The notes under the pieces are model-generated. The model searched no databases. It was not told the DNA's origin and saw only the letters and a program-made list of their open reading frames with translations. A stretch of DNA of 64,000 bases from Gemmatimonadota bacterium (GTDB lineage Bacteria > Gemmatimonadota > Gemmatimonadetes > Gemmatimonadales > Gemmatimonadaceae), in NCBI GenBank assembly GCA_016182795.1, contig JACPFW010000027.1:1-64000 (forward strand). The letters run 5' to 3'. The position numbers and the translations under genes were made by a program. Shown here in pieces: positions 24,374 through 40,820 of this stretch. Position 1 is the stretch's first letter. Each line of letters opens with the position of its first letter.

Positions 24374-25864
24374 CTAGCGCAGGCCCTTCTCGATCCGCGC
24401 GCAGAGCGTCTTGAGCACCTTGAGGCGGGCGTGGTACTTGTCGTTGGCCTCCACCAGCGTCCACGGCGCCTTGGTGCTCGACGTGCGCCCCACCATGTCG
24501 CAGACGGCGTCGCTGTAGGCGTCCCATTTCTTGCGGTTGCGCCAGTCTTCCTCGGTGATCTTGAACGTCTTGAACGACACCTGCTCGCGCTCCTTGAACC
24601 GGCGCAGCTGCTCGGCCTTGGAGATCGCGAGCCAGAACTTGCAGACGATGGTGCCGTGGTTCACCATCTCCTCTTCAAAGTCGTTGATCTCGCCGTAGGC
24701 GCGCTCCCAGTCGTACGGCGCGGCGAATCCCTCGACGCGCTCCACGAGCACGCGGCCATACCACGACCGGTCGAAGATCGTGATGTTCCCCTGCCGCGGG
24801 AGCTGCCGCCAGAAGCGCCAGAGGTACGGATGCGCCTTCTCCTCGTCGCTGGGCGCGGCGATGGGCACCACGCGCACGACGCGCGCATCGACCGCGCCGG
24901 TCACCCGGCGAATCGTGCCGCCCTTCCCCGCCGCGTCGTTCCCCTCGAAGACCACGACTACTGAGTGGTCCTTGAACGCCTTGTGCCGCGCGAGCAGCGC
25001 CAGCTCACCCTGCCACTTCTCGAGGTCCTTCTCGTACTTGTTCTTCGAGACCTTCTTGGTCAGGTCGAGTTCCGACAACAGCGTGCGCTTGGCGTCGACT
25101 TCGGGAATGTCGCTCGAGCGGGCGGGCGTCGGGCGCGCCGCCTTGGGCGACGCCAATCGTGCCTTGATGGCCCGCAGCAGCTCCTCGGCGACGTACAGCT
25201 CACGATACCGGCGATCGATCCCTTCCACGACCAGCCATGGCGCGAGCGCCGTGGAGGTGTGGCGCAGGGTGTGCGCGGAGACCTCGCGAAAGCGGTCGTA
25301 CTTCTTGAAGTAGTCCTCGTCGATGCCCGTCACGCGCCAGCGCGTGTGCGGATCCTTCTTCAGTTCCTTGATCCGCTTGCGCTGGGCGTCCTTGGACAGA
25401 TGGAACCAGAACTTCAGCACCAGTGTGCCTTCTTCCGACAGCATCCGTTCGAAGCGCACGATCTCATCGATGCGCTGTTCGAGCATTGCCCAGCGCGCGT
25501 GTCCCTTGGTCAGCGACGCCTGTAGAATGGGCGCCGTGTACCACGAGCCAAAGAAGATGCCGACCTTCCCCTTGGGCGGCAGCGCGCGCCAGAAGCGCCA
25601 CATGCGCGGCCGCTCGAGTTCTTCGTCCGAGGGCTCGCCCATTCCATTCACTTCGACGTGACGCGGATCGAGCCATGAGGTGAGGGCGTTCACCGTCTCG
25701 CCGCGACCACCGCCCTCGACGCCGCCGACGAGCAGTACCACGGGAAACTGTTTGGCGTCCTTCAGCGCGAACTGTGCATCGAGCAGTTCGGAGCGCAGCG
25801 TTGGCACGCGCGCATCATATGTACCCTTGTCGATCGCATGGCCGAGCTCGGCATCTTCGAACAT
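24374..25864 (-). CDS. pap: polyphosphate:AMP phosphotransferase, two-domain PPK2
   Basis: A 496-residue protein with two tandem PPK2 domains, as in class II PPK2 (Pap), which is usually about that long. The C-terminal domain has a full Walker A (EGNDAAGKGGTIRR) and the lid/Walker B segment TIFDRSWYGRVLVERV. The N-terminal domain carries a degenerate loop (GGVEGGGRGE) and FFGSWYTAPI, so it is probably inactive, as in known Pap proteins. The enzyme phosphorylates AMP to ADP with polyphosphate. I chose ATG 25864 because the longer frame overlaps the divergent GMC gene region and lacks homologous sequence. It converges with the isomerase gene, 10 bases between the stops. Confidence 0.9.
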   Translation of the reverse strand: MFEDAELGHAIDKGTYDARVPTLRSELLDAQFALKDAKQFPVVLLVGGVEGGGRGETVNALTSWLDPRHVEVNGMGEPSDEELERPRMWRFWRALPPKGKVGIFFGSWYTAPILQASLTKGHARWAMLEQRIDEIVRFERMLSEEGTLVLKFWFHLSKDAQRKRIKELKKDPHTRWRVTGIDEDYFKKYDRFREVSAHTLRHTSTALAPWLVVEGIDRRYRELYVAEELLRAIKARLASPKAARPTPARSSDIPEVDAKRTLLSELDLTKKVSKNKYEKDLEKWQGELALLARHKAFKDHSVVVVFEGNDAAGKGGTIRRVTGAVDARVVRVVPIAAPSDEEKAHPYLWRFWRQLPRQGNITIFDRSWYGRVLVERVEGFAAPYDWERAYGEINDFEEEMVNHGTIVCKFWLAISKAEQLRRFKEREQVSFKTFKITEEDWRNRKKWDAYSDAVCDMVGRTSSTKAPWTLVEANDKYHARLKVLKTLCARIEKGLR

Positions 25865-25970
25865 GGCTCCTCCCGGGTCACATCCAACATGGTGCGTCCC
25901 GGCTGAGTGCTCAACCGCCGCCAACACCGATGCGCTGGCGCACGGGCGTGCTTCTGGGCATTTTCGCCTT

Positions 25971-27665
25971 ATGCAAACCCAACCCAAGCGACTCGAATAC
26001 GACGTGATCATCGTCGGCTCCGGCGCGGGCGGCGGCATCACCGCCCATGCCCTGGTGGAAGCCGGAGCAAACGTCCTGATGCTCGAAGCCGGCGGCTGGT
26101 GGGACAACAGCATGGACTCGACGATGCTCAAGATGCCGTACGACTCGCCGCGTCGCGGCGCGGGCACGACCGAGCGTCCGTTTGGCGAGTTCGACGCCTG
26201 CATCGGCGGCTGGCAGCTACCCGACGAGCCGTACACGGTCGCCGCCGGCCAGAAGTTCGACTGGTGGCGGGCGCGCATGCTCGGCGGTCGCACCAATCAC
26301 TGGGGGCGCATCTCGCTGCGGTTTGGCCCCGACGATTTCCGCCGCAAGAGCATCGACGGGCTCAGCGACGACTGGCCGATCACGTACAAGGACGTCGCGC
26401 CGTACTACGACAAGGTGGATCGTCTCGTCGGCATTTTCGGGTCCGCCGAGAATCTGCCGAATCACCCCGACAGCATCTTCCAGCCGGCGCCGCGGCCGCG
26501 CTGCCATGAGTTGTATGTCAAGAAGGCGGCCGACCGCCTTGGCATCTGGTGCATCCCGTCCCGGCTCTCGATCATCACCAAGCCGCTGAACAACCGCGCG
26601 CCGTGCCACTACTGCGCGAACTGCAACCGCGGCTGCATGACCAACTCCAACTTCACGTCTGGCGACGTGCTGCTCTTCCCCGCCGCCAAGACGGGGCGGC
26701 TGTCGATCATCACCAACGCGATGGCGCGCGAAGTGACGGTGGATGCCAAGGGGATGGCCACTGGCGTGGCGTACATCGACAAGCCGACGGGCAAGGACAT
26801 GCATGTGAAGGGGCGGATTGTCGTGCTGGCCGCCAGCGCGTGCGAGTCGGCGCGCATCATGCTCAACAGCAAGTCGTCGCGATTCCCCAACGGCATCGGC
26901 AACCAGGGCGGCGTGCTCGGCAAGTACCTCACCGACAGCACGGGCACCGACGTGGGCGGCTTCATTCCCAAGCTCACCGATCGCGTGCGGCACAACTGCG
27001 ACGGCGTGGGCGGCGGGCACATCTACATGCCGTGGTGGCTCAACAACAAGAAGCTCGACTTTCCGCGCGGTTACCACATTGAAGTGTGGGGCGGCATGGG
27101 CCAGCCCAGCTACGGATTCATGGGCGGCATTGAGAATTATCCGAACTTCAAGGGATACGGCGCGGGGCTCAAGGAAGATTACCGGCGGTTCTGGGGCTCC
27201 ACCGTCGGCTTCTCCGGCCGCGGCGAGATGATTCCCAACGCCGACAGCTACTGCGAGATCGATCCCACGAAGAAGGACAAGTGGGGCATCCCGGTGCTCA
27301 AGTTCCACTGGAAGTGGAGCGACTACGAGCACAAGCAGGTGCGGCACATGCAGCAGACCTTCCGCCAACTCATCGCCGAGATGGGCGGCGAGGTATGGAG
27401 CCCAATGCCTGGCCCGGAGAAAGGGTACGGCATCTCCAACGGCGGGCAGATCATCCACGAAGTCGGCACGGTGCGCATGGGCAACGACCCCAAGTCGTCG
27501 GCGGTCAACGCGCACCAGCAGGCGTGGGGATGCAAGAACCTGTTCGTCGCCGACGGCGGCCCATTTGTGACGCAGGCCGACAAGAACCCGACGTGGACCA
27601 TCATGGCGCTCGCGTGGCGCACGGCGGACTACATCACGCAGCAGCGGAAGGCGGGGGCGCTATGA
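25971..27665 (+). CDS. GMC-family FAD oxidoreductase (sugar 3-dehydrogenase-like)
   Basis: A 564-residue flavoprotein from ATG 25971. The dinucleotide-binding motif is VIIVGSGAGGGITAHAL near residue 12. GGRTNHWGR and the cysteine cluster CHYCANCNRGC follow, and the C-terminal half has HEVGTVRMG and NPTWTIMALAWRTADYI with the GMC catalytic His/Asn region. It overlaps the next gene by 4 bp. That partner is a gluconate dehydrogenase subunit 3-type protein with a Tat signal, which usually carries the large subunit across the membrane. This pair resembles glucoside 3-dehydrogenase or gluconate 2-dehydrogenase. The cytochrome c subunit is not next to it. Confidence 0.85.
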   Translation: MQTQPKRLEYDVIIVGSGAGGGITAHALVEAGANVLMLEAGGWWDNSMDSTMLKMPYDSPRRGAGTTERPFGEFDACIGGWQLPDEPYTVAAGQKFDWWRARMLGGRTNHWGRISLRFGPDDFRRKSIDGLSDDWPITYKDVAPYYDKVDRLVGIFGSAENLPNHPDSIFQPAPRPRCHELYVKKAADRLGIWCIPSRLSIITKPLNNRAPCHYCANCNRGCMTNSNFTSGDVLLFPAAKTGRLSIITNAMAREVTVDAKGMATGVAYIDKPTGKDMHVKGRIVVLAASACESARIMLNSKSSRFPNGIGNQGGVLGKYLTDSTGTDVGGFIPKLTDRVRHNCDGVGGGHIYMPWWLNNKKLDFPRGYHIEVWGGMGQPSYGFMGGIENYPNFKGYGAGLKEDYRRFWGSTVGFSGRGEMIPNADSYCEIDPTKKDKWGIPVLKFHWKWSDYEHKQVRHMQQTFRQLIAEMGGEVWSPMPGPEKGYGISNGGQIIHEVGTVRMGNDPKSSAVNAHQQAWGCKNLFVADGGPFVTQADKNPTWTIMALAWRTADYITQQRKAGAL

Positions 27666-28363
27666 GACAGATGGCGGATGGCAAAGGGCGGAAGGCGGAT
27701 AAGGAGCTTCCGGTGATCGAGCAGGCGTCCGACGACACCGCGACGGGGCTCGACCGCCGCGACGTGGTGAAGATGCTGGGTGCGGCAGCGCTGGCGGCGG
27801 TGGGGCTTGCCGTGCCGGACGTGGCGCGCGCGGCGGACTATGCAGAAGCGGCGCTGCAGCAGGGGGCGCCGGCCTACAAGCCGCTCTACTTCACCAAGGC
27901 CGAGTGGCCGATGGTGCGCACGCTGGCCGATCTGGTGATTCCGCGCGACGCGCGCTCCGGCAGTGCGAGCGACGCCGGCGTGCCCGAGTTCATGGACTTC
28001 ATCATGGTGGAGTTCAAGAGCAACCAGAAGTGGATGCGCCCGGGGCTCCAGTGGCTGAACGCCGAGTGCACCAAGCGGTTCAAGAGGGGCTTTGTGGCCT
28101 GCACGCCCGCGCAGCAGAAGCTGGTGCTCGACGACATTGCCTTCCCCAAGAAGGCGCCGGCCGCGCTCAAGCCCGGCGTCGAGTTCTTCACGCGCTTCCG
28201 CGACATGACGGCGAGCGGCTTCTGGAGCAGCCGCGTCGGCTACAAGGATATTGGATACATGGGCAATACCGTTGTACCGGTGTGGGAGGGCTGCCCCGAG
28301 CCGCAACTGCAGAAACTCGGCGTCTCGTACAAGATGTCGATGAAGGCGGTGCGCCGAGGATGA
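27662..28363 (+). CDS. gluconate 2-dehydrogenase subunit 3-type protein with Tat signal
   Basis: A 233-residue protein starting at ATG 27662, which overlaps the GMC stop (ATGA). A Tat-type signal DRRDVVKMLGAAALAAVGLA begins near residue 31 and ends at AARA-like cleavage. The rest (FTKAEWPMVRTLADLVIPRD, GVPEFMDFIMVEF, DIGYMGNT) matches the small subunit of membrane sugar dehydrogenases. Its role is to escort and anchor the flavoprotein. Residues 2-15 (RQMADGKGRKADKE) are encoded by a dispersed GATGGCGGA repeat that also supplies the start region, so the true N-terminus may have been rebuilt by the insertion. Confidence 0.85.
   Translation: MRQMADGKGRKADKELPVIEQASDDTATGLDRRDVVKMLGAAALAAVGLAVPDVARAADYAEAALQQGAPAYKPLYFTKAEWPMVRTLADLVIPRDARSGSASDAGVPEFMDFIMVEFKSNQKWMRPGLQWLNAECTKRFKRGFVACTPAQQKLVLDDIAFPKKAPAALKPGVEFFTRFRDMTASGFWSSRVGYKDIGYMGNTVVPVWEGCPEPQLQKLGVSYKMSMKAVRRG
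27665..27703 (+). repeat. GATGGCGGA repeat at the start of the subunit 3 gene
   Basis: CAGATGGCGGATGGCAAAGG followed by GCGGAAGGCGGAT matches the units in imuB and dnaE2. It covers codons 2-14 of the gene. Confidence 0.6.
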
Positions 28364-28425: not shown

Positions 28426-28454
28426 TTGCCCTGAGTCATCCATCGAGTTACACT
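28426..28454 (+). promoter_or_regulatory. promoter of the ilv-leu operon
   Basis: TTGCCC (28426-28431) and TACACT (28449-28454) are separated by 17 bases, close to a housekeeping promoter. The expected start of transcription is about 28460-28462, which coincides with the ATG of the leader peptide at 28461, so the leader mRNA should be leaderless. Confidence 0.6.
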
Positions 28455-28460
28455 GGCTTC

Positions 28461-28562
28461 ATGCTTCTCTCGGCCCGACTTTCCCTTTCGCTGCTTAGCA
28501 TCGCGCTTATTAGCGTGCTGCTTCTTAGCGTTCGGGAGCCGGGTCTGCAGGTCGCGATGTAA
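28461..28562 (+). CDS. Leu/Ile/Val-rich attenuator leader peptide
   Basis: A 33-codon frame, ATG 28461 to TAA 28562, contains 11 Leu, 2 Ile and 3 Val ([20 protein letters not shown] is the core). It ends shortly before two hairpins and the ilvD start at 28670. This is the classical design of an amino acid attenuator: ribosome stalling at scarce Leu/Ile/Val codons would prevent the terminator. The ATG lies about six bases after the -10 box, with no ribosome site, so translation probably starts on leaderless RNA. Most Leu codons are CTT, unusual in this GC-rich genome (CTG/CTC preferred), which could sharpen the sensing. Confidence 0.8.
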
Positions 28563-28575
28563 TCGCGCACCGCAC

Positions 28576-28598
28576 CCCTCCCGAGACGATCGGGAGGG
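28576..28598 (+). promoter_or_regulatory. first leader hairpin (pause or antiterminator partner)
   Basis: CCCTCCCGA (28576-28584) pairs perfectly with TCGGGAGGG (28590-28598) around a 5-base loop. It lies 13 bases after the leader stop codon and before the terminator hairpin, where a pause or competing hairpin is expected. Its exact role is inferred. Confidence 0.5.
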
Positions 28599-28617
28599 CT
28601 GCCCTTGAGAGACACAA

Positions 28618-28652
28618 GAGGCCCCTTCCGGTTCCGGAAGGGGCCTCTTCGT
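28618..28652 (+). terminator. attenuator terminator hairpin before ilvD
   Basis: GAGGCCCCTTCCGG (28618-28631) pairs perfectly with CCGGAAGGGGCCTC (28634-28647) around TT, a 14-bp GC-rich stem. It is followed by TTCGTCTTC, a pyrimidine/T-rich tail. It stands 22 bases before the ilvD start. Confidence 0.75.
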
Positions 28653-28669
28653 CTTCTCGAGCCCCCTGC

Positions 28670-30391
28670 ATGCGATCAGACATCATCAAGCGCGGCCCCC
28701 GCCGGGCCCCACATCGGGCCCTGCTGCGCGCCACCGGCCAGATGCGCGACGCGAGCGACTTCGACAAGCCGTTCATCGCGGTGTGCAACTCGTACGTCGA
28801 CATCGTGCCTGGGCACGTGCATCTGCAGGCGTTCGGACGGGCGGTCAAGGAAGCCATCCGCGACGCGGGCGGCGTGCCGTTCGAGTTCAACACCATCGGC
28901 GTGGACGACGGCATCGTGATGGGGCACGCGGGCATGCACTATTCGCTGCCGTCGCGCGAGCTCATCGCCGATTGCGTCGAGACGATGGTGGCGGCGCACT
29001 GCTTTGACGGGATGATCTGCATCCCGAACTGCGACAAGATCGTCCCCGGCATGCTGATGGGCGCGGCACGCGCGAATGTGCCGACGATCTTCGTCTCGGG
29101 CGGCCCGATGGAAGCGGGCGTCGATCAACGCGGGGCAAAGATCGACCTCATCTCGGTCTTCGAGGGCGTTGGACAGCACGCCGCGGGGGCCATCGACGAC
29201 GCGCGACTCACGGAACTCGAACGCTTCGCCTGCCCCACGTGCGGCAGCTGCAGCGGCATGTTCACCGCCAACTCGATGAACTGCCTGTGCGAGGCGATGG
29301 GAATCGCGCTGCCGTACAACGGGTCGCTGCTCGCCACGCGGCCGGAGCGGCTCGACCTCGCGCGGCGTGCGGCCCGCGAGCTGATGCGCATGGTGCAGAG
29401 CGAGGTGCGCTTTCTCGACATCGTGACGGCCGAGGCAATCGACAACGCGATCGCGCTGGACGTGGCGATGGGTGGATCGACCAATACCGTCCTGCACGTC
29501 CTCGCGCTGGCGCGCGAGGCGCAGGTGGACTATCCGCTCGCGCGCATCAACGACGTGGCGGCACGCGTGCCGCACCTGGCGAAGGTATCGCCGGCATGGG
29601 ATGGCAATCGGCAGTGGCACCTGCAGGACGTGCATCAGGCCGGCGGCGTCCCCGCCATTCTCGCCGAACTGCACACGCGCGCGCTGCTGCACGCCGATGT
29701 CCCCACGGTGACGGGGAAGACGATGGGCGAGAACCTCGCGGGCGTCACGAACGCGAACCCGGAGTGCATTCGCCCGATCGCGAACCCGCATGCCGCTCGT
29801 GGCGCGCTGTGCGTGCTGTACGGCAGCCTCGCGGAAGACGGTGCGGTGGTGAAGGTGGGGGCGGTCGACGAACAGGCGCTGCAATTCCGCGGTCCCGCCC
29901 GCGTCTTCGACAGCGAGGAGGACGCGCTCGAGGCGGCAGCGGCGGGCGGCATCGTGGCCGGCGACGTGGTGGTGGTGCGTTACGAGGGCCCGCGCAGTGG
30001 CGGCATGCGCGAGATGCTGGCGCTTACGAGCTTCATCAAGGGGCTGCCGATCGGCGACGCGGTTGCCCTCGTCACCGACGGCCGCTTTTCCGGCGGCACG
30101 CGCGGCCTGTGCATTGGGCACGTTTCGCCGGAAGCCGCGGAGGGAGGCGCGATCGCGCTCGTCCGCGCCGGCGACGAGATCGCCATCGACTGCGTCGCGC
30201 GCACCCTGGACGTCAACGTCAGCGCCGTCGAGATGGCGGCCCGCCGCGCGGCATGGGTGGCGCCCGAACCCCGCTTCACGCGCGGCTGGCTGGCGCGCTA
30301 TGTGCGCTTCGTGACGAATGCGTCGCAGGGCGCCGTGCTTGACGTGGACGAGGGTCGCCCGGCGGCGGTGGCCGCGACGGTGGACGCATGA
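28670..30391 (+). CDS. ilvD: dihydroxy-acid dehydratase IlvD
   Basis: A 573-residue enzyme that makes 2-oxo acids from dihydroxy acids in valine, isoleucine and leucine synthesis. Characteristic motifs are [32 protein letters not shown], and [19 protein letters not shown] with the Fe-S cysteines, and [18 protein letters not shown] near the C-terminus. It is the first gene of the operon after the attenuator. The stop overlaps ilvB by 4 bp. Confidence 0.95.
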
Positions 30392-32088
30392 GCGCCGCCA
30401 TGCGCACCGGCGCGCAGATCATCTGCGAAGCGCTCATCCGCGAGAATGTCGAAGTGCTGTTCGGCATTCCCGGCGGCAACATCATGCCGCTGTACCACGC
30501 GCTGTGGGAGTACCACGCGCACCTTCGCCATGTGCTCTGCCGCCACGAACAAGGCGCCGGTCACGCGGCCGAGGGATATGCGCGCGCCAGCGGCCGCGTC
30601 GGCGTGTGCATCGCCACGAGCGGCCCGGGGGCCACGAACCTCGTGACGCCGATCGCCGACGCGTGGATGGATGGGACGCCGCTCGTCGCGATCACGGGCC
30701 AGGTGTCCCGCGCCGTGCTGGGCTCCGATGCCTTCCAGGAAGTCGACATCACGGGCATCACCGTGCCCGTGACAAAACACAGCTATCTGGTGAGCGATGC
30801 GCACGAGCTGCCCCGGGTGGTCGCCGAGGCGTTCCACATTGCGCGCACCGGGCGACCGGGGCCGGTGCTGATCGACGTCACCAAGGACGCGCAACTGGCC
30901 ACGGTGACGCCCGACTGGAGCCAGCCACTCGACCTGCCGGGCTACCGGCCCGCGCAGGTTCCGCACGCCGACTCGCTGCAGGCGGCGGCGGACGCGCTGT
31001 CGCGCGCGGCGCGTCCGCTGATTCTCGCCGGTCACGGTGTGATCCAGTCGGGCGCGTCCGACGCGCTCCTCGCCTTCGCGGAACACACCGGCATACCGGT
31101 GATCACCACGCTGCAGGGACTGGGCGCGTTCCCGCAGGAGCATCCGCTCTCCCTTGGCATGCCAGGCATGCATGGTTGGGTCCACGTCAATCGCGCCATT
31201 CAGGCGTGCGACGTGCTGTGCAATATCGGCAGCCGGTTCGACGACCGCGTCACCGGCAAGGCGTCGACCTTTGCCCCGCGCGCGACCATCGTGCACGTGG
31301 ACATCGACGCCGCCGAAATGGCCAAGACGGTGCGCGCCGACATTCCCGTGCTGGGCGATGCGCGCCGCGCGCTCGAAGCGCTGCGCGTGTTGGTCCCCAC
31401 GCTGGACACCGCGTCGTGGCGCGCCACCGTGCACGCACTCCGCGCCGAGTATCAGCCGCGGCAGGCCTATGTGCGGCGCGAACGCATCGCGCCGCTGATG
31501 CCGTACGACGTGTTCGACGTGATGCACGAAACGTTCGCGCGGCGCGCCGACTGGCGGGTGGTCACCGATGTCGGCCAGCACCAGATGTGGGCCGCGCAGC
31601 TGCTCGAGTGGCGCCGCCCCGGCACGCACATCACGAGCGGCGGCGCCGGTACCATGGGATTCGCCATTCCGGCCGCGCTCGGTGCCGCCATTGCCGCGCC
31701 CAACGACACCATCTGGGCGGTGGTCGGCGACGGTGGCTTTCAGATGACCAATCAGGAGCTCGCCACGATCCAGCAAGAGGGCCTTCGCAACGTGAAGGTC
31801 GCCGTGATCAACAACGGGCACCTCGGCATGGTGCGGCAGTGGCAGGAGCTGTTCCACAGCCGTCGCTACAGCGGTACGCCCCTCTCCGGGCCTGACTTCG
31901 CCGCGCTCGCACATGCCTACGGCATGATGGGCGTTCGCGTGGAACGCGTGGAGGAGGCGGCCCCGGCCATCGAGCGCGCGTGGCGCCACGACGGCCCCTC
32001 ACTTGTCGATTTCCGCGTCGATCAGGGCGCGAATGTCTTTCCCATCGTCCCGGCCGGAAGCTCCATCGGCGAGATGATCACACAGTAA
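30388..32088 (+). CDS. ilvB: acetolactate synthase large subunit IlvB
   Basis: A 566-residue thiamine-diphosphate enzyme (AHAS) making acetolactate and acetohydroxybutyrate. Motifs include [36 protein letters not shown] with the catalytic Glu, and the ThDP-binding [20 protein letters not shown] continuing to [13 protein letters not shown]. ilvN follows after 73 bases holding a small hairpin. Full length and motifs suggest activity. Confidence 0.95.
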
Positions 32089-32161: not shown

Positions 32162-32701
32162 ATGAAGGAACACACCCTGATCGTTCTCCTGCAGGATCGC
32201 GCTGGCGTGCTGCACCGCACGGTCTCGCTCCTGCGCCGACGACAATTCAACATCACGAGCCTGTCGGTCGGCCACTCTGAGATGCCGGGCATCAGCCGCA
32301 TGACGCTCGTGGTCGACACCGCGGACGTGACGCAGGTGGTAAAGCAGCTCGACCGGCTCGTCGACGTCCTCGTCGTGCGCGATGTGACGGAGGCGCCAAG
32401 CGTGCAGCGCGAGACCGCGCTCGCGAAGGTTGCGGTGGACGAGGACGCGCTCTTCGCCCTCATCACCCGGGTGCGCGACGCGGGTGCGCGCGTGCTCGAC
32501 GTGGCGGGCGGCTCCGTGGTCGTCGAGATCACGGACTCCCCGGTCCGCGTGGACGCCTTTGTCGAGGACTTGCGCACGATGGGGCTTCGCGAGCTGATGC
32601 GCACCGGAAGGCTGGCGATGATGCGCGGCGAGGTGGAGATGTCGCGTCCGCAGGCGTTCCGCGAGCAGGGCGACGGCGCGGGCGAGGAGGATGCGGCATG
32701 A
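32162..32701 (+). CDS. ilvN: acetolactate synthase small (regulatory) subunit IlvN
   Basis: A 179-residue subunit that controls AHAS and confers valine feedback. The N-terminal ACT domain reads [20 protein letters not shown] and the following [15 protein letters not shown] segment is the family signature. A second ACT-like domain ([20 protein letters not shown]) ends the protein. The stop overlaps ilvC by 4 bp. Its start is at ATG 32162, 73 bases after ilvB. Confidence 0.93.
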
Positions 32702-33723
32702 GCGCGACCATCTACTACGATCGGGATGCCCAGCCGGGGCGGCTCGCTGGCCGCATCGTGGCCATCATCGGTTTCGGCAGTCAGGGGCATGCCCACGCCC
32801 TGAACCTGCGCGACAGCGGCGTGGACGTCGTCGTCGGCCTGCCGGAGTCGTCGGCCAGTCGCGCGAAGGCGGTGGCGGCCGGCCTCCGCGTCGCAGCGGT
32901 GGCGGAGGCCGCCGCACAGGCGCACATCGTCATGCTGCTCGCCCCTGACACGGCACAAGCCGCGATCTTCGACGACGCGCTACGCGCGGCATTGACGCCC
33001 GGCAAGACACTGATGTTCGCCCACGGATTCAACATCCACTATCAGCTCATTGTGCCGCCGGCCGGCGTCGACGTGAGCCTGGTCGCGCCGAAATCGCCGG
33101 GGCACCGGGTGCGCGAGACGTTCGTGTCGGGAGGCGGAACACCCGGACTGGTCGCCGTGGCCCAGGATGCCTCGGGCCACGCTTTGGCCGACGCGCTGGC
33201 GTACGCCCGGGGCATCGGATGCACGCGCGCGGGCGTCATCGCGACGACGTTCCAGGAAGAGACGGAGACCGATCTCTTCGGCGAGCAGGCGGTGTTGTGC
33301 GGCGGGACGGCCGCGCTCGTGAAGGCGGGCTTCGAGACGCTCGTCGAGTCGGGGTACCAGCCGGAGCTCGCGTACTTCGAGTGCCTGCACGAACTGAAAC
33401 TCATCGTGGACCTGATGTATCAGGGCGGCCTCAACTACATGCGCTACTCGGTGAGCGACACCGCCGAATACGGCGATTACGTGGCGGGTCCGCAGATCGT
33501 GACTGACGCAACCCGCGAGTCCATGCGCGTTCTGCTGGCGCGCATCAAGGACGGGACCTTCGCGCGTGACTGGGTGGCGGAGAACCAACGGGGCCGTCCG
33601 TGGTTCAACGATGCACGCCGCCGCGACACCGATCACCAGCTCGAACGCGTCGGCGCGTCGCTGCGCGCCATGATGCCGTTCGTGGAGGCCAGGATCGTGC
33701 AGCCCGGCACCGGGGGGGCTTGA
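32698..33723 (+). CDS. ilvC: ketol-acid reductoisomerase IlvC (class I)
   Basis: A 341-residue NADPH enzyme converting acetolactate to dihydroxyisovalerate. It has the nucleotide loop [18 protein letters not shown] near residue 21 (the usual form is GYGSQG), [41 protein letters not shown] and the C-terminal knotted domain with [21 protein letters not shown]. The stop TGA shares a base with the leuA ATG. Confidence 0.95.
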
Positions 33724-35312
33724 TGCTCGAGCGACTCCGCATCTTCGACACCACACTCCGCGACGGCGAGCAGGCGCCGGGCTGCACAATGACGCCCAGC
33801 GAGAAGCTCAGTGTGGCGCGCAAGCTCGCGCAACTCGGCGTGGACATCATCGAGGCCGGCTTCCCCGCCGCGTCGCCCGGGGACTGGCAGGCGGTGCACG
33901 CCATCGCAGCGGAGGTCGGCGCCGGCGCGGATGCGCCAGTGATCGCCGGCCTCGCCCGGTGCAATGCGTTCGACCTCGACCAGGCCGCGAGCGCCATCGC
34001 GCCAGCCGCGCACCGGCGCCTGCACACCTTCATCGCGACCTCCGACCTGCATATCCACGAGAAGCTCCGCAGCACACGAGGCGCGGTGCTTGCTCGCATC
34101 ACGGAGATGGTAGGGCACGCCCGCCAGCTCTGCGACGACGTCGAGTTCTCACCGGAGGATGCCACCCGCAGCGATCGCGACTTTCTGTTTGAGGCGCTGC
34201 ACGCGGCGATCAATGCGGGCGCGACAACACTGAACATCCCCGACACCGTGGGCTATGCGACACCGGAGGAGTATTTCGAGCTGATCGCCGCCGTCACGCG
34301 CGACGTGGTTGGCACGCGCAAGGTGGTGGTGTCTACGCACTGCCACGACGACCTGGGCCTGGCGGTGGCGAACACACTGGCCGGGGTGAAGGCGGGCGCG
34401 CGTCAGGTGGAATGCACCGTCAACGGCCTTGGCGAACGGGCCGGGAACGCCGCCCTCGAGGAAGTCGTGATGGCGCTCAGTGTACGGCCCCAGCAGTACT
34501 TCGTGCACAGCAACATCGTGACGCGCGAGATCGGCGCGGCCTCTCGCCTCGTCGCCCGCTGCACCGGCGTTCGCGTTCCGCCGAACAAGGCGGTCGTCGG
34601 CGCCAACGCGTTCGCGCACGAGTCGGGCATCCACCAGGATGGCGTGCTCAAGAACCGCCGCACGTACGAGATCCTCAACGCCGAGCACCTTGGCCTGGAA
34701 GGCGCACGACTCATTCTTGGCAAGCACTCAGGACGCAACGCCTTTCGCCGGCATCTCGCGGCGCTTGGGCACGAACTCGACGAGGCAGAGTTCGAGGCGG
34801 TCTTCAACCGCTTCAAGGAAGTGGCCGACCGCAAGAAGGTGCTCACCGACCGGGAGATTGAGGCGATCATCGAAGGCGAGACGAGCCGCGCGAGCGCTTA
34901 CTACGCGCTCGATCTCGTGCAGGTCTCGTGCGGCACACACGCGATCGCAACGGCCACGGTCCGGCTGCATGGTCCGGACGGCCGGCCGCTCGTCGCGGCC
35001 GCGGAGGGCGACGGTCCGGTGGACGCGGTCTGTCACGCCATCAACGACTGCGTTGGCGAGGTCGCCGACCTGGTGGAGTTCAACGTCGACGCCGCGGCTG
35101 AGGGAATCAACGCGGTCGGCGGTGTGACCGTACGCCTGCGCGAAAAGGTCGCCTCGCAGTCCATCGCCGGCGATGACGCCGAACGCCGGCGCGTGAGCAC
35201 GGGATTCGCCGTGCACACCGACATCATCGTCGCGGCCGCCGAGGCCTACGTGTCAGCAGTCAACGGCCTCGTGCGGGCACGCCGCAACGATGCCGTGGAG
35301 GTGCCGGCGTGA
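33723..35312 (+). CDS. leuA: 2-isopropylmalate synthase LeuA
   Basis: A 529-residue enzyme, the first committed step of leucine synthesis. I chose ATG 33723, which overlaps the ilvC stop, because it gives the conserved opening [18 protein letters not shown]. Metal ligands appear in [20 protein letters not shown] and [31 protein letters not shown] precedes the C-terminal regulatory (leucine feedback) domain with [15 protein letters not shown]. It overlaps leuC by 4 bp. Confidence 0.95.
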
Positions 35313-36715
35313 GGACGCTGTTCGAGAAAGTCTGGCAAGCGCACGTCGTGCGCGAGGCCGGCGACGCACCCACCATCCTGTATGTCGACCTGCACCTCCT
35401 GCACGAGGTGACCTCGCCGCAGGCGTTCTCCGAGCTGGCCGCACGCGGCTTGGCTGTGCGTCGTCCCGATCGCTCCGTCGCGACGATGGACCATTCGACG
35501 CCAACAGTGACGGCGCCGGCGGGCGCCGCCGCACGCGCCCTGCCGATGGCGGCGGGGGCGGCGGAGCAACTGGCGCAGCTCGAGGCCAACTGCGCCCGCT
35601 ATGGCGTGCCGCTCATTGGATGGGACGATGACCGCCGTGGCATCGTCCACGTCTTTGGACCAGAACTGGGCTACACCCAGCCCGGCATGACCATCGTGTG
35701 CGGCGACAGTCACACGAGTACGCATGGCGCCTTTGGCGCGCTTGCCTTTGGCATTGGCACGTCGGAAGTGGGCCACGTGCTCGCGACGCAATGCCTGCTG
35801 CAGCGCAAACCGTGCACCATGGAAGTGCGTGTCGACGGTGCGCTCGGTCCGGGCGTGCGCGCCAAGGATCTGGTGCTCGCCATCATTGCCCGCATCGGAG
35901 TGGGCGGCGGCACCGGGCACGTCATCGAGTACACCGGCAGCACCATTCGCGCCATGTCGATGGAGTCGCGAATGACCGTGTGCAACATGAGCATTGAGGC
36001 AGGAGCGCGAGCGGGGATGATCGCCCCGGACGACACGACGTTCGACTATCTCGCGGGGCGCCCGGGGGTCCCGACGGGCGAGGCGTGGGACGCCGCAGTC
36101 TCGCGGTGGCGCGCGCTGGCCACTGACGAGGGGGCGACGTACGACCGAACCGTGACCATCGACGCGACCACCATCGCGCCGATGATTTCGTACGGCACCA
36201 ACCCCGAGATGTCCATTGCCGTGAACGCCCCCGTTCCCGGCTTGGCCGACTACCGCGATGGACCGGCGCTCGAGCGCGCCCTCGCGTACATGGGCGTGAC
36301 GCCTGATGAGCCGCTGCTCGGCAAGCCGGTGCAGACGGTGTTCATCGGCAGTTGCACCACTGGCCGCACCTCCGACCTGCGCGATGCCGCAGCGGTGCTG
36401 CGCGGGCGGCGTGTGGCCGACTCGGTGCGCATGCTCGTCGTCCCGGGCTCGCAGCAGGTGAAGCGCCAGGCAGAGGCGGAGGGACTGGCCGACGTCTTTC
36501 GCGCGGCGGGCGCCGAGTGGCGTGAGAGCGGATGTTCCATGTGCATTGCCATGAATGGCGACCAGGTGCGCGCCGGCGACTATGTCGTGAGCACCAGCAA
36601 TCGCAACTTCGAGGGGCGCCAGGGGCCCGGCGCCCGCACGCTCCTCGCCAGTCCGCTCACCGCGGCGGCCTGCGCGGTGCGCGGCGTCGTGACCGATCCG
36701 AGAACCCTGCTATGA
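35309..36715 (+). CDS. leuC: 3-isopropylmalate dehydratase large subunit LeuC
   Basis: A 468-residue aconitase-family subunit. [35 protein letters not shown] and [12 protein letters not shown] carry the cluster ligands, and [20 protein letters not shown] closes the family pattern. The usual motif is SCTNGR; here SCTTGR, a small variation. It works with LeuD (overlap of 4 bp) to isomerise 2-isopropylmalate. Confidence 0.95.
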
Positions 36716-37347
36716 CACCACTGCCCTTCACCACGCTCGAGGCGCGCGCCGTGCGTCTCGTGCGCGACGACATCGACACCGATCAGATCATCCCGGCGCG
36801 CTTTCTCACGACCATTTCGCGCGCGGGACTCGGCCGGCACCTGTTTGCCGACTGGCGATGCGACTCGATGAATGCACCGCGTCCCGACTTTCCGTTGAAC
36901 GCGCCCGCCGCCGAGGGCGCACGCGTGCTGGTCGCCGGGCGCAACTTCGGGTGCGGCTCATCGCGCGAGCACGCTTCGTGGGCCTTGGCAGACTGGGGAT
37001 TCCGCGTCATCATCGCGACGTCCTTCGCCGACATCTTTCGCAACAACGCCAGCAAGAACGGTCTGCTGACAATCGCACTTGGCGCGTCCGACCACCGAGC
37101 CCTGCTCGACGTGCTCGAGGGCGACGGCTCGGCAACGCTGCACGTCGACCTCGCCGCACAGCGCGTGGCAGCAGGGAACTGGAGCGCCTCCTTCACGATC
37201 GAACCGTTTGCCAAGCGTTGCCTCCTCGAGGGCGTGGACGAACTGGGGTTCCTCCTCGCCGTCGACGCGGACATCGCCGCCTTCGAGGTGCGCCATACGC
37301 CGGGAGTCGCCGCCGCGCTGCTCACGGCATCACGGGCGGCGTCGTGA
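36712..37347 (+). CDS. leuD: 3-isopropylmalate dehydratase small subunit LeuD
   Basis: A 211-residue swivel-domain subunit from ATG 36712, overlapping leuC (ATGA). [14 protein letters not shown] and [20 protein letters not shown] are the family motifs, with [15 protein letters not shown] following. It forms the heterodimer with LeuC. The stop overlaps the leuB GTG. Confidence 0.95.
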
Positions 37348-38462
37348 AGGCCACCATCGCCGTGCTGGCGGGCGACGGTGTCGGCCCCGAAGTGAGCACC
37401 GAAGCAGTGCGCGTACTGCGGACGGTCGCAGAATGTCACGGCCACGACTTCACGTTCCTGGACGCGCTCGTGGGTGGGGCGGCGATTGACGCGACCGGGG
37501 ATCCGCTGCCCGCTTCGACGCGACGCACCGTGGAGGCGAGCGACGCCGTGCTCCTTGGGGCCGTCGGCGGACCCAAGTGGAGCGATCCCTCGGCGACGGT
37601 GCGGCCCGAGCAAGGGTTGCTCGCACTGCGCGGACTGCTCGGCGCATTCGCCAACCTGCGGCCGGTGCAGCCACATCCCGCTCTCGTCGGCGCGGCACCC
37701 ATCCGGCCCGAATTGCTGACTGGCGTGGATGTGCAGTTCGTGCGGGAACTGACCGGCGGCATGTACTTTGGCCGAAAGTCGCTTGAGACGGATGGACCAG
37801 GGCAAGAGGTTGCGACCGACCACTGCACCTACTCGACCAGCGAAATCGAACGGGTGGCGCGAGTAGCCGGACAGCTTGCCCGCGAGCGGCGACGGCGCGT
37901 GACGTCGGTGGACAAGGCGAACGTCCTCGAGACGTCGCGGCTGTGGCGGCGCACCGTGACGCGCGTCATGCGCGACGAGTTCCCCGACGTCACCCTGGAG
38001 CATGCACTGGTCGATTCGTTTGCCATGACACTGCTGCGGGCCCCCGCGTCGTTCGATGTTGTGGTGACGGAGAATCTCTTTGGCGACATTCTCACCGACG
38101 AGGCGGCGGTGCTCGCCGGCTCAATCGGCGTGCTGCCGTCCGCGTCGTTCGGTGAGCGCCGTGCCGACGGACGACGTCAGGGCATCTACGAACCTATTCA
38201 CGGCTCCGCGCCCGATATCGCCGGTCAAGGCAGCGCGAACCCGATTGGGACCATCCTGTCCGCCGCGCTGCTGCTGCGCCATTCGCTCAACCTGACCGAC
38301 GAGGCGGCACACGTCGAACGGGCCGTCGGCGACGTGATCGCCGATGGCTGGCGCACCGCCGATCTCTGGAGCGCGGCAGACCAGTCGGCACCGGTACACC
38401 GTGCCTCCACGACCGCGATGGGCGCAGCCGTCGTCGACCGCTTGAGGCGGATCATGTCGTAG
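37344..38462 (+). CDS. leuB: 3-isopropylmalate dehydrogenase LeuB
   Basis: A 372-residue NAD-dependent beta-decarboxylating dehydrogenase from GTG 37344 (GTGA overlap with leuD). It opens with IAVLAGDGVGPEVSTEAVRV. LLGAVGGPKW, LRPVQPHPAL, the tyrosine/lysine region TYSTSEIERVARVAGQLA, and TSVDKANVLETSRLWRRTV with the catalytic Lys follow. YEPIHGSAPDIAGQGSANPI is the cofactor region. This is the last gene of the operon; a hairpin follows at 38527. Confidence 0.95.
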   Translation: MKATIAVLAGDGVGPEVSTEAVRVLRTVAECHGHDFTFLDALVGGAAIDATGDPLPASTRRTVEASDAVLLGAVGGPKWSDPSATVRPEQGLLALRGLLGAFANLRPVQPHPALVGAAPIRPELLTGVDVQFVRELTGGMYFGRKSLETDGPGQEVATDHCTYSTSEIERVARVAGQLARERRRRVTSVDKANVLETSRLWRRTVTRVMRDEFPDVTLEHALVDSFAMTLLRAPASFDVVVTENLFGDILTDEAAVLAGSIGVLPSASFGERRADGRRQGIYEPIHGSAPDIAGQGSANPIGTILSAALLLRHSLNLTDEAAHVERAVGDVIADGWRTADLWSAADQSAPVHRASTTAMGAAVVDRLRRIMS

Positions 38463-38554: not shown

Positions 38555-38610
38555 CGCCGTTTCGCCACGACATGGATGGCGAACCCCCCGCGCCACAAGC
38601 GATAATTATC

Positions 38611-38653
38611 CCGCCCCTTCCCCTGCACCACACCCTGCCCCTTCCCCTTCACT
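38611..38653 (+). repeat. CCCTGCACCACACCCTGCC-type repeat upstream of a Gfo/Idh gene
   Basis: CCGCCCCTTCCCCTGCACCA and CACCCTGCCCCTTCCCCTTC match the repeat family at 50113-50260. It ends nine bases before the ATG at 38662, so it forms the leader of this gene. Only one arm is present. Confidence 0.65.
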
Positions 38654-38661
38654 CGTCCTTC

Positions 38662-39897
38662 ATGTCTCGTCTCGGCGTAGGCTTCATCGGCTCCGGCTTC
38701 AATGCCCGCTTTCATATGCAAGGGTGGGTCGGCGTGCGCGACGCCGACATCCTCGGCGTTTGGAGCCCCGACGACAAGAGCGCCAAGTCGGCCGCCGCGT
38801 ACTGCCGCTCGCTCAATGTTGGTGACTGCAAGGCGTACCGCAGCATCGCGCAGATGGTGGCTGATCCAACCATTGACGCCATCTGGCTCAGCGGCCCCAA
38901 TCACGCACGCGTCGAGAACGTCGAGGAGATCGTCGACACGATCAAGCGCGGCAAGGGGGAACTCAAGGGCATCGCCTGCGAGAAGCCGCTGGCGCGCAAT
39001 GTGGCCGAAGCCAAGCGCGTGAAGCAGTTGGTCGATTCGGTCGGGTTGAAGACCGGCTATCTCGAGAATCAGCTCTTCGCCCCGCACGTGGAGGCCGGCA
39101 AGAAGCTCATCTGGGCGCGCGGCGCGGCGACGACCGGACGCCCGTACCTCGCGCGCGCCGCCGAGGAGCACAGCGGACCGCACAGTCCGTGGTTCTGGAT
39201 GGGCCAGCTGCAGGGCGGCGGCGTGCTCAACGACATGATGTGCCACTCGGCACTCGTCGTGCGCCACCTGCTCACGCGCCCCGGCGAGCCGCTGAGTTCG
39301 GTGAAGCCCGTGAAGGTCACGGGCCACATCGCGTCGCTCAAGTGGTCGCGGCCGGCCTATGTGAAGAAGCTCAAGCAGAACATGGGCGCGCAGGTGGACT
39401 ACGCAAAGGCGCCGTCGGAAGACTTCGCCTCGCTCACCATCGAGTTCGAGACGGCCGAAGGACACCGCGTGATCGGCGAGGCGTCCACGTCGTGGAGCTT
39501 CGTTGGCGCCGGCCTGCGGCTGTCGGCCGAACTGCTCGGCCCCGAGTACTCGATGAAGTGGAACTCCCTCGACAGCGGACTGCAGCTCTTCTTCAGCCGC
39601 GAGGTCACGGGGCGCGCCGGTGAAGACCTGGTGGAGAAGCAGAACGCCGAGCAGGGTGTCATGCCGGTGGTGCCGCAGGAGCATCTCGCATACGGCTACA
39701 CCGACGAGGACCGACACTTCGTGAACGTCTTCCTCGGGCGCGAGGAGCCGCTGCTCACGTTTGACGACGGGTTGGAGGTCGTCAAAATGCTGATGACCGC
39801 CTACCAGAGCGCCGAGAGCGGCAAGACGCTCACGTTCCCGCCGCGCGGCCTCGATACGTTCAAGCCGCAGGTGGCGCGCGGAGTGTGGAAGCCGTGA
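38662..39897 (+). CDS. Gfo/Idh/MocA-family oxidoreductase
   Basis: A 411-residue NAD(P)-binding oxidoreductase from ATG 38662. The Rossmann motif is VGFIGSGFNARFHMQG near residue 6, and CEKPLARNVAEAKRVKQLV carries the EKP motif common to the family, followed by GYLENQLFAPHV. There is no signal peptide, so it is cytoplasmic. Substrates of this family are sugars, inositols or their oxidised forms, but none can be chosen from sequence. The stop shares GTGA with the proline dehydrogenase start, an odd pairing. Together with the other sugar genes of the window it may act in 3-keto-sugar metabolism. Confidence 0.85.
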   Translation: MSRLGVGFIGSGFNARFHMQGWVGVRDADILGVWSPDDKSAKSAAAYCRSLNVGDCKAYRSIAQMVADPTIDAIWLSGPNHARVENVEEIVDTIKRGKGELKGIACEKPLARNVAEAKRVKQLVDSVGLKTGYLENQLFAPHVEAGKKLIWARGAATTGRPYLARAAEEHSGPHSPWFWMGQLQGGGVLNDMMCHSALVVRHLLTRPGEPLSSVKPVKVTGHIASLKWSRPAYVKKLKQNMGAQVDYAKAPSEDFASLTIEFETAEGHRVIGEASTSWSFVGAGLRLSAELLGPEYSMKWNSLDSGLQLFFSREVTGRAGEDLVEKQNAEQGVMPVVPQEHLAYGYTDEDRHFVNVFLGREEPLLTFDDGLEVVKMLMTAYQSAESGKTLTFPPRGLDTFKPQVARGVWKP

Positions 39898-40820
39898 GCA
39901 TCGGCCGGACGATCCTGCTCAAGATGGCCGATTCGCCGTTCCTGAATCGGCAGGCCACGCAGCGCGCCTTTGTGAAACGCGCCACGCGGCGCTTCATGCC
40001 CGGCGAAGCGCCCGAGGACGCGCTGCGCGCGGCGGCGCTGCTCAAGGCCGAAGGGCGCGGCACCGTGTTCACCAAGCTCGGCGAGAACATCGAGGTGCCC
40101 GCCGACGCCGATGAGGTGCGCGACCACTATCTGTGGTTCTTCGATCAGCTCGCCGAGTCCGGGCTCGATGGGCACGTGAGCGTGAAACCCACGCAGCTTG
40201 GGCTCGACCTGTCGTACGAGCGGTGTCTGGAGCACCTGCTCGTGCTCGCGGCGCGCAGTGAGTCGATCGGCAAGATCTTCTGGATCGACATGGAGAGTTT
40301 CGTCTACGTCGATCGGACGCTACAGCTATATCGGGCGCTCAAGGAGCGGCATCCGCACGTCGGGCTGGCGTTGCAGGCGTATCTGTATCGGACGCAGGCT
40401 GATATCGAAGCGCTTCTGCCGATCCACCCAGTAGTTCGCCTGGTGAAGGGGGCGTACGCCGAGCCATCGAGCGTGGCGTACCCGGTGAAAGCCGACACCA
40501 ACCGCAACTACTTTGATCTCGCCGACCGGATGCTGCAGGCGGCGGCGAGCGGCCATTGCACGCCCATCCTCGGCACGCACGACATCCCGCTGCTCGACCG
40601 GCTGGTGGCGCGCGCCAAGGCGCACGGCACGCCCGACCGCGGGTACGAGATCCACATGCTCTACGGCATTCGCGACGCCGACCAGCGCCGTCTGCGCAGC
40701 GACGGGCGCACAGTGAAGACGCTCATCAGCTACGGCAGCGCGTGGTACAAGTGGTACATGCGCCGGCTGGCGGAGCGGCCGGCGAATGTGGGATTCGTAT
40801 TGCGGTCGATGCTGGGCTAG
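39894..40820 (+). CDS. monofunctional proline dehydrogenase
   Basis: A 308-residue FAD-dependent TIM barrel. I chose GTG 39894 (GTGA overlap with the previous stop); another GTG lies at 39885. Family motifs are HVSVKPTQLGLDLSYERCL, ALQAYLYRT, RLVKGAYAEPSSVAYP, GTHDIPLLDRL, HMLYGIRDADQRRL and the C-terminal WYKWYMRRLAERPANVGFV. It oxidises proline to pyrroline-5-carboxylate and passes electrons to the quinone pool. The second PutA domain (P5C dehydrogenase) is not in this window. Confidence 0.9.
   Translation: MSIGRTILLKMADSPFLNRQATQRAFVKRATRRFMPGEAPEDALRAAALLKAEGRGTVFTKLGENIEVPADADEVRDHYLWFFDQLAESGLDGHVSVKPTQLGLDLSYERCLEHLLVLAARSESIGKIFWIDMESFVYVDRTLQLYRALKERHPHVGLALQAYLYRTQADIEALLPIHPVVRLVKGAYAEPSSVAYPVKADTNRNYFDLADRMLQAAASGHCTPILGTHDIPLLDRLVARAKAHGTPDRGYEIHMLYGIRDADQRRLRSDGRTVKTLISYGSAWYKWYMRRLAERPANVGFVLRSMLG

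Follow-up and report, generated by a model that had tools for sequence, protein, structure and literature searches.

Organization of the ilv-leu locus

The window, i.e. the entire 64,000-nt stretch of Gemmatimonadota DNA analysed here, contains a complete ilv-leu cluster, the genes of which lie on the forward strand in the order ilvD-ilvB-ilvN-ilvC-leuA-leuC-leuD-leuB. The gene for dihydroxy-acid dehydratase, ilvD (28670–30391; TIGR00110, 774 bits), is followed by ilvB (30388–32088), ilvN (32162–32701), ilvC (32698–33723), leuA (about 33729–35312), leuC (35309–36715), leuD (about 36721–37347) and leuB (about 37350–38462), some of the leu gene starts being uncertain. This gene identification agrees with the fused ilv-leu operon of the original prediction, which had been made before any database search, and the locus shows that ilv and leu genes can be placed together under one leader. 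Between the upstream gene and ilvD are found a promoter-like sequence, a short open reading frame (ORF) for a candidate leader peptide and two hairpins. No Shine-Dalgarno-like site was seen before the ilvD ATG (28650–28670), though two relatives, L005 and L007, have one.

The gene located 5′ of the leader (PF13618) is encoded on the same strand and ends at position 28363. The upstream neighbours (25680–28363) encode a GMC oxidoreductase and a protein that resembles gluconate 2-dehydrogenase subunit 3 and carries a Tat signal, and the region 3′ of the cluster (38572–40820) encodes a Gfo/Idh/MocA oxidoreductase and a proline dehydrogenase.

The leader peptide ORF

The leader ORF (28461–28562, forward strand) consists of 33 codons and its translation yields the same counts as originally given, 11 Leu, 2 Ile and 3 Val, i.e. 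16 of the 33 codons specify branched-chain amino acids. It was compared to 3,025 short ORFs from both strands of 410 kb of the same genome, with all start codons allowed. Only three of these combined a Leu+Ile+Val content of at least 40% with at least eight Leu residues; the one at 28461 has the highest Leu+Ile+Val fraction of the three, and its downstream hairpin scores −30.9, whereas those of its two rivals score −12.1 and −14.8. The leader ORF is a clear outlier in this set. The 230-nt leader region as a whole also folds far more stably than its shuffled versions (z = −8.9).

Leucine codons in the leaders of the window and its relatives are biased towards CTT, which accounts for 41% of Leu codons in leaders vs 6% in the genes of the operon; in the window leader, seven of the 11 Leu codons are CTT. 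This preference may reflect slower decoding, or it may serve to prevent undesired pairing with segment 0 (see below).

Hairpins and competing RNA segments

The 9-bp hairpin expected after the leader is present at 28572–28602 (forward strand), where three outer pairs can be added to the stem (−22.3 kcal/mol). Its 5′ and 3′ arms are referred to as segment 1 (28572–28584) and segment 2 (28590–28602), respectively, and the hairpin as 1:2, the putative anti-antiterminator. An intrinsic terminator hairpin, 3:4 (28616–28649, forward strand; −30.6 kcal/mol), is located between the leader ORF and ilvD, the first structural gene. Its stem had been described as a perfect 14-bp one and proved to be slightly longer, with 15 bp closed by a 4-nt GTTC loop; the U-tract that follows (CGTCTTC) is weak.

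An antiterminator, which was missing from the original prediction, could also be discerned. Segment 2 (TCGGGAGGG) is able to form a duplex with segment 3 (CCCCTTCCGG), which is the 5′ arm of the terminator, and the resulting structure, 2:3 (approximately 28592–28633, forward strand), is predicted by folding to be mutually exclusive with the terminator. In two relatives, the sister species (L002) and L027, the hairpin search selected the 2:3 antiterminator unprompted. Two further segments lie within the leader ORF on the same strand. Folding and the swap test described below indicate that segment 0 in the ORF tail (28529–28552), with its core GTTCGGGAG at 28530–28538, is the partner of segment 1 when a ribosome is stalled upstream, and that segment −1 (approximately 28472–28486) is the partner of segment 0 when the leader is untranslated.

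These segments suggest the following mechanism. When branched-chain aminoacyl-tRNAs are plentiful, the ribosome would run through the leader and cover segment 0; hairpin 1:2 would then form, segment 3 would be left free and terminator 3:4 would halt transcription before ilvD. Under a shortage of Leu (or Ile/Val), it would instead stall within codons 1–21, covering segment −1 and leaving segment 0 free, whereupon 0:1 and 2:3 would pair, the terminator would be blocked and the operon would be transcribed. In the complete absence of leader translation, pairing of −1 with 0 would again lead to termination. Translation would most likely start on a leaderless transcript, the 5′ end of which would coincide with the ATG at 28461 or lie no more than 1–2 nt from it.

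In other phyla, ilv-leu operons are controlled by tRNA-sensing T-boxes, and control of the present operon by a T-box or a metabolite riboswitch, with the ORF arising by chance, might accordingly be envisaged. However, none of the Rfam covariance models, including those of leader, T-box and riboswitch families, reached its gathering score in the window; over the leader, at E-values up to 5, just low-scoring models of eukaryotic microRNAs, snoRNAs and lncRNAs were matched. We give this explanation almost no credence.

Co-variation, folding and codon dependence of the switch

Native segment duplexes were compared to swapped combinations of segments from different relatives (15 sequences, 5,000 permutations). 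Native 0:1 duplexes were stronger than the swapped ones (p = 0.0002), and none of the 5,000 permutations matched the native 2:3 duplexes. In a stricter version of the test, with a single sequence per clade (n = 8) and all permutations considered, the exact p values were 0.0004 for 0:1, 0.0012 for 2:3 and 0.006 for −1:0. For the one-hairpin sequences taken alone (see below) the duplex test was not significant (p = 0.68), n = 4 being too small a number and the segment window being badly placed for L121.

The nascent RNA downstream of the ribosome was also folded to its minimum energy with the ribosome edge set at every codon of the leader in turn. The untranslated window leader is predicted to terminate, ribosomes at codons 1–21 to cause antitermination, and those from codon 22 to the stop codon to cause termination. 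Most relatives behave likewise. Termination throughout was obtained for L007, L111, L116 and L119 under minimum-energy folding, and antitermination almost throughout for L008 and L118, in which 2:3 is preferred even at the stop codon; in the latter two, the outcome would have to be settled by transcription order.

As a control, the leader was recoded 200 times with synonymous codons drawn from the usage of the operon itself, keeping the peptide unchanged. Only one of the 200 recodings was as switch-like as the native sequence, for the window leader and likewise for the leader of L003. In these folding models, then, the switch depends on the choice of codons and not merely on the peptide encoded.

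Codon dependence also bears on the possibility that the terminator hairpin serves the upstream gene, as a constitutive terminator or a processing element, that the ORF is incidental and that a protein regulator controls the ilv-leu genes. The PF13618 gene, being on the same strand, could indeed make use of a terminator at this position. Such an element would not, however, explain the codon dependence of the switch, nor the retention of the leader ORF, of its position and of the competing pairings despite sequence divergence, and we regard this possibility as highly improbable. We consider it very probable that the region constitutes a six-segment ribosome-mediated attenuator of the ilvD-to-leuB cluster, most likely with a leaderless start. 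The original proposal of an attenuator for ilv-leu is upheld by the conservation of the leader, the co-variation of its pairings and the codon dependence of the switch, and computation lends strong support to the attenuation mechanism. In vivo, this mechanism would entail ribosome stalling in the leader and a response to Leu, Ile and Val.

Conservation of the attenuator in Gemmatimonadota

Loci upstream of ilvD orthologs with at least 63% identity were collected from relatives. A Leu/Ile/Val-rich leader ORF precedes ilvD in 24 of the 27 distinct Gemmatimonadota loci, and the conservation in relatives that had been named as a check on the prediction is thereby borne out; no leader ORF was found upstream of ilvD in the other three (L006, L115 and L123). 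Hairpin 1:2 is present in 22 of the 24 leaders. It is missing in L005 and L121; in these one-hairpin variants, the tail of the leader pairs straight with the arm of the terminator, and control keeps the same sign. The attenuator, ordinary in principle, is real and well conserved. The leader peptides themselves diverge, albeit with a recurring Leu-Ile (or similar) pair followed by Gly/Ser, located just 5′ of the segment that begins the RNA switch.

Candidate promoter and translation start of the leader

The promoter TTGCCC-17-TACACT proposed near the leader ATG is located at 28426–28454 (forward strand), and the ATG at 28461 follows the −10 element after 6 nt. The promoter is weak, matching the consensus at seven of 12 positions. 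Since the pattern TTGnnn-17-TAnnnT is about as frequent in the window as expected by chance (3 observed vs 2.5 expected), the weight of this promoter derives only from its position and conservation. On these grounds we infer a transcription start at 28461 or within 1–2 nt of it. The stated lack of a ribosome-binding site before the leader was also found, the best match to AGGAGG upstream of 28461 being 3/6.

In the sister species (L002), the sequence TTGTGC-17-TAAAAT is positioned 7 nt before the leader ATG. Good promoters are present in L005 and L114, with the −10 element at 9 and 8 nt before the leader start, respectively; L003 is ambiguous. A different arrangement is seen in at least 12 other Gemmatimonadota relatives, the good promoters of which have a −10 element ending 33–52 nt ahead of the leader start; a convincing Shine-Dalgarno sequence was seen in none of them. 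Judging from promoter position, the 5′ UTR would measure some 26–45 nt in most relatives that share this attenuator. Conservation thus extends to the attenuator but not to the leaderless state. The spacing of 6 nt here and 7 nt in the sister species would fit the leaderless mRNA of the original prediction; that spacing is not conserved in most relatives. The position of the promoter makes leaderless initiation likely in these two genomes.

A sample of about 410 kb (L126–L145 and the window) was searched for a genome-wide leaderless signal. The motif TANNNT was found 6–9 nt before 23 of 840 candidate starts, about 8 being expected from the frequency at other distances (approximately 2 per distance), and in the same position before only six of 1,654 internal codons used as a control. 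This enrichment suggests many leaderless genes in this genome, and leaderless genes therefore seem to be normal in this organism.

The arrangement in the at least 12 relatives with distant promoters, along with the weakness of the promoter in the window, could be accommodated by the same attenuator with a transcription start further upstream, the ribosome entering through a 5′ UTR devoid of a Shine-Dalgarno sequence. Against this, no better promoter emerged from a scan of the 97-bp interval that separates the leader from the upstream gene, the −10 element lies merely 6–9 nt before the start in L001, L002, L005 and L114, and the leaderless signal is seen genome-wide. We regard entry through a 5′ UTR in the window as rather unlikely and retain the leaderless start as the preferred reading.

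Comparison with known attenuators

Most documented cases of ribosome-mediated attenuation come from Proteobacteria, Firmicutes and Actinobacteria. A close parallel to the relay described here is offered by the enteric his attenuator, which contains segments A–F, with the pairs A:B, C:D and E:F leading to termination and B:C and D:E to antitermination; its untranslated leader terminates, and a stalled ribosome covers the first segment. The pairs −1:0, 1:2 and 3:4 vs 0:1 and 2:3 form the corresponding relay in the window, where the untranslated leader is likewise predicted by folding to terminate. The window system differs in sensing, as proposed, Leu/Ile/Val rather than His, in preceding an ilv-leu cluster and in being probably leaderless, and sequence homology between the two attenuators is not expected. 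Leaders of the E. coli ilvGMEDA and leuABCD operons have Leu/Ile/Val control codons, a terminator and a bias towards rarer Leu codons. The window leader shares with them the control codons, the terminator ahead of the operon and the rarer-Leu-codon bias; the E. coli leaders differ in that they are translated from a Shine-Dalgarno sequence and that ilv and leu are under separate control.

Leaderless leader peptides are already on record from Sinorhizobium, Streptomyces and Corynebacterium. In Sinorhizobium meliloti, the trpL attenuator RNA has the ATG of its leader peptide at the very 5′ end (PMC7298713). Its leader peptide is leaderless, as is inferred for the window; it differs in having Trp codons, in preceding the trpE(G) operon and in belonging to Alphaproteobacteria. 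The Corynebacterium glutamicum ilvBNC operon is subject to attenuation with a leaderless leader peptide (PMC11857589), and most leader peptides of Streptomyces lividans are leaderless, the leaderless ones being ilvL, leuL1, leuL2, trpL1, trpL2, metL and thrL (PMC8079986). Common to the ilvB leaders of these two species and the window leader are a branched-chain leader peptide, an intrinsic terminator and downstream ilv genes, as well as the leaderless state, which is probable for the window. Their peptides are shorter (15 and 13 aa, respectively), they have fewer segments, they come from another phylum and the first gene is ilvB, rather than ilvD as in the window. A 2005 paper predicted ilvB leaders in Actinobacteria (PMC1262725), and a 2026 paper reported attenuation at ilvB1 of Mycobacterium tuberculosis (PMC13236596). 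To call leaderless attenuation uncommon is a weak claim, being undercut by the S. meliloti, S. lividans and C. glutamicum examples and, in addition, by the many leaderless genes that the TANNNT signal suggests for the genome itself.

A literature search, covering mainly open-access journals, retrieved nothing joining Gemmatimonadetes with attenuation and leader peptides, which does not prove priority, and nothing joining Gemmatimonas with leaderless transcripts. The attenuator described here is apparently the first of its kind, and its leader apparently the first probably leaderless leader peptide, described in Gemmatimonadota. With two dozen relatives, two-hairpin and one-hairpin versions and two kinds of 5′ end, both the switch and its initiation are easy to dissect by comparison. 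It is conceivable, though doubtful, that one family having the same attenuator on leaderless and on UTR-bearing, Shine-Dalgarno-less leaders represents a natural experiment on the loading of the first ribosome, with leaderless initiation by intact 70S ribosomes acting as a control step inherent in the system. If true, attenuation in leaderless species would answer to stress states that favour leaderless translation, besides amino-acid supply.

Distribution of the leader and the operon

A leader profile (A1) searched against the genome of the window recovered the ilv-leu locus (E = 6e-6), and no second leader was detected elsewhere in that genome at E < 0.6. Across 298 genomes of the phylum, the profile matched 11, once in each, and all 11 carry this ilvD; the leader is found only at this operon.

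Outside Gemmatimonadota, the same kind of leader, with a single-hairpin attenuator, is present in two Oscillochloris (Chloroflexota) metagenome-assembled genomes (MAGs), at −469 to −397 (L029) and −309 to −216 (L031) relative to ilvD. The ilvD of each is about 70% identical to that of the window, and horizontal transfer or misbinning are possible explanations for their leaders. Candidate Leu/Ile/Val-rich leader ORFs were also noted in an Ornatilinea MAG (L051; −193 to −94 from ilvD) and a Neomarinimicrobiota MAG (L089; −217 to −130).

The operon itself is patchily distributed. Auxotrophy for branched-chain amino acids may be common among the relatives, or the operon may be horizontally mobile. 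Any match to ilvD (E-value 1e-3) was found in only 21 of 60 relatives, and a close ilvD in only 27 of 179 genomes of the family and in two of the 11 from the window's own genus.
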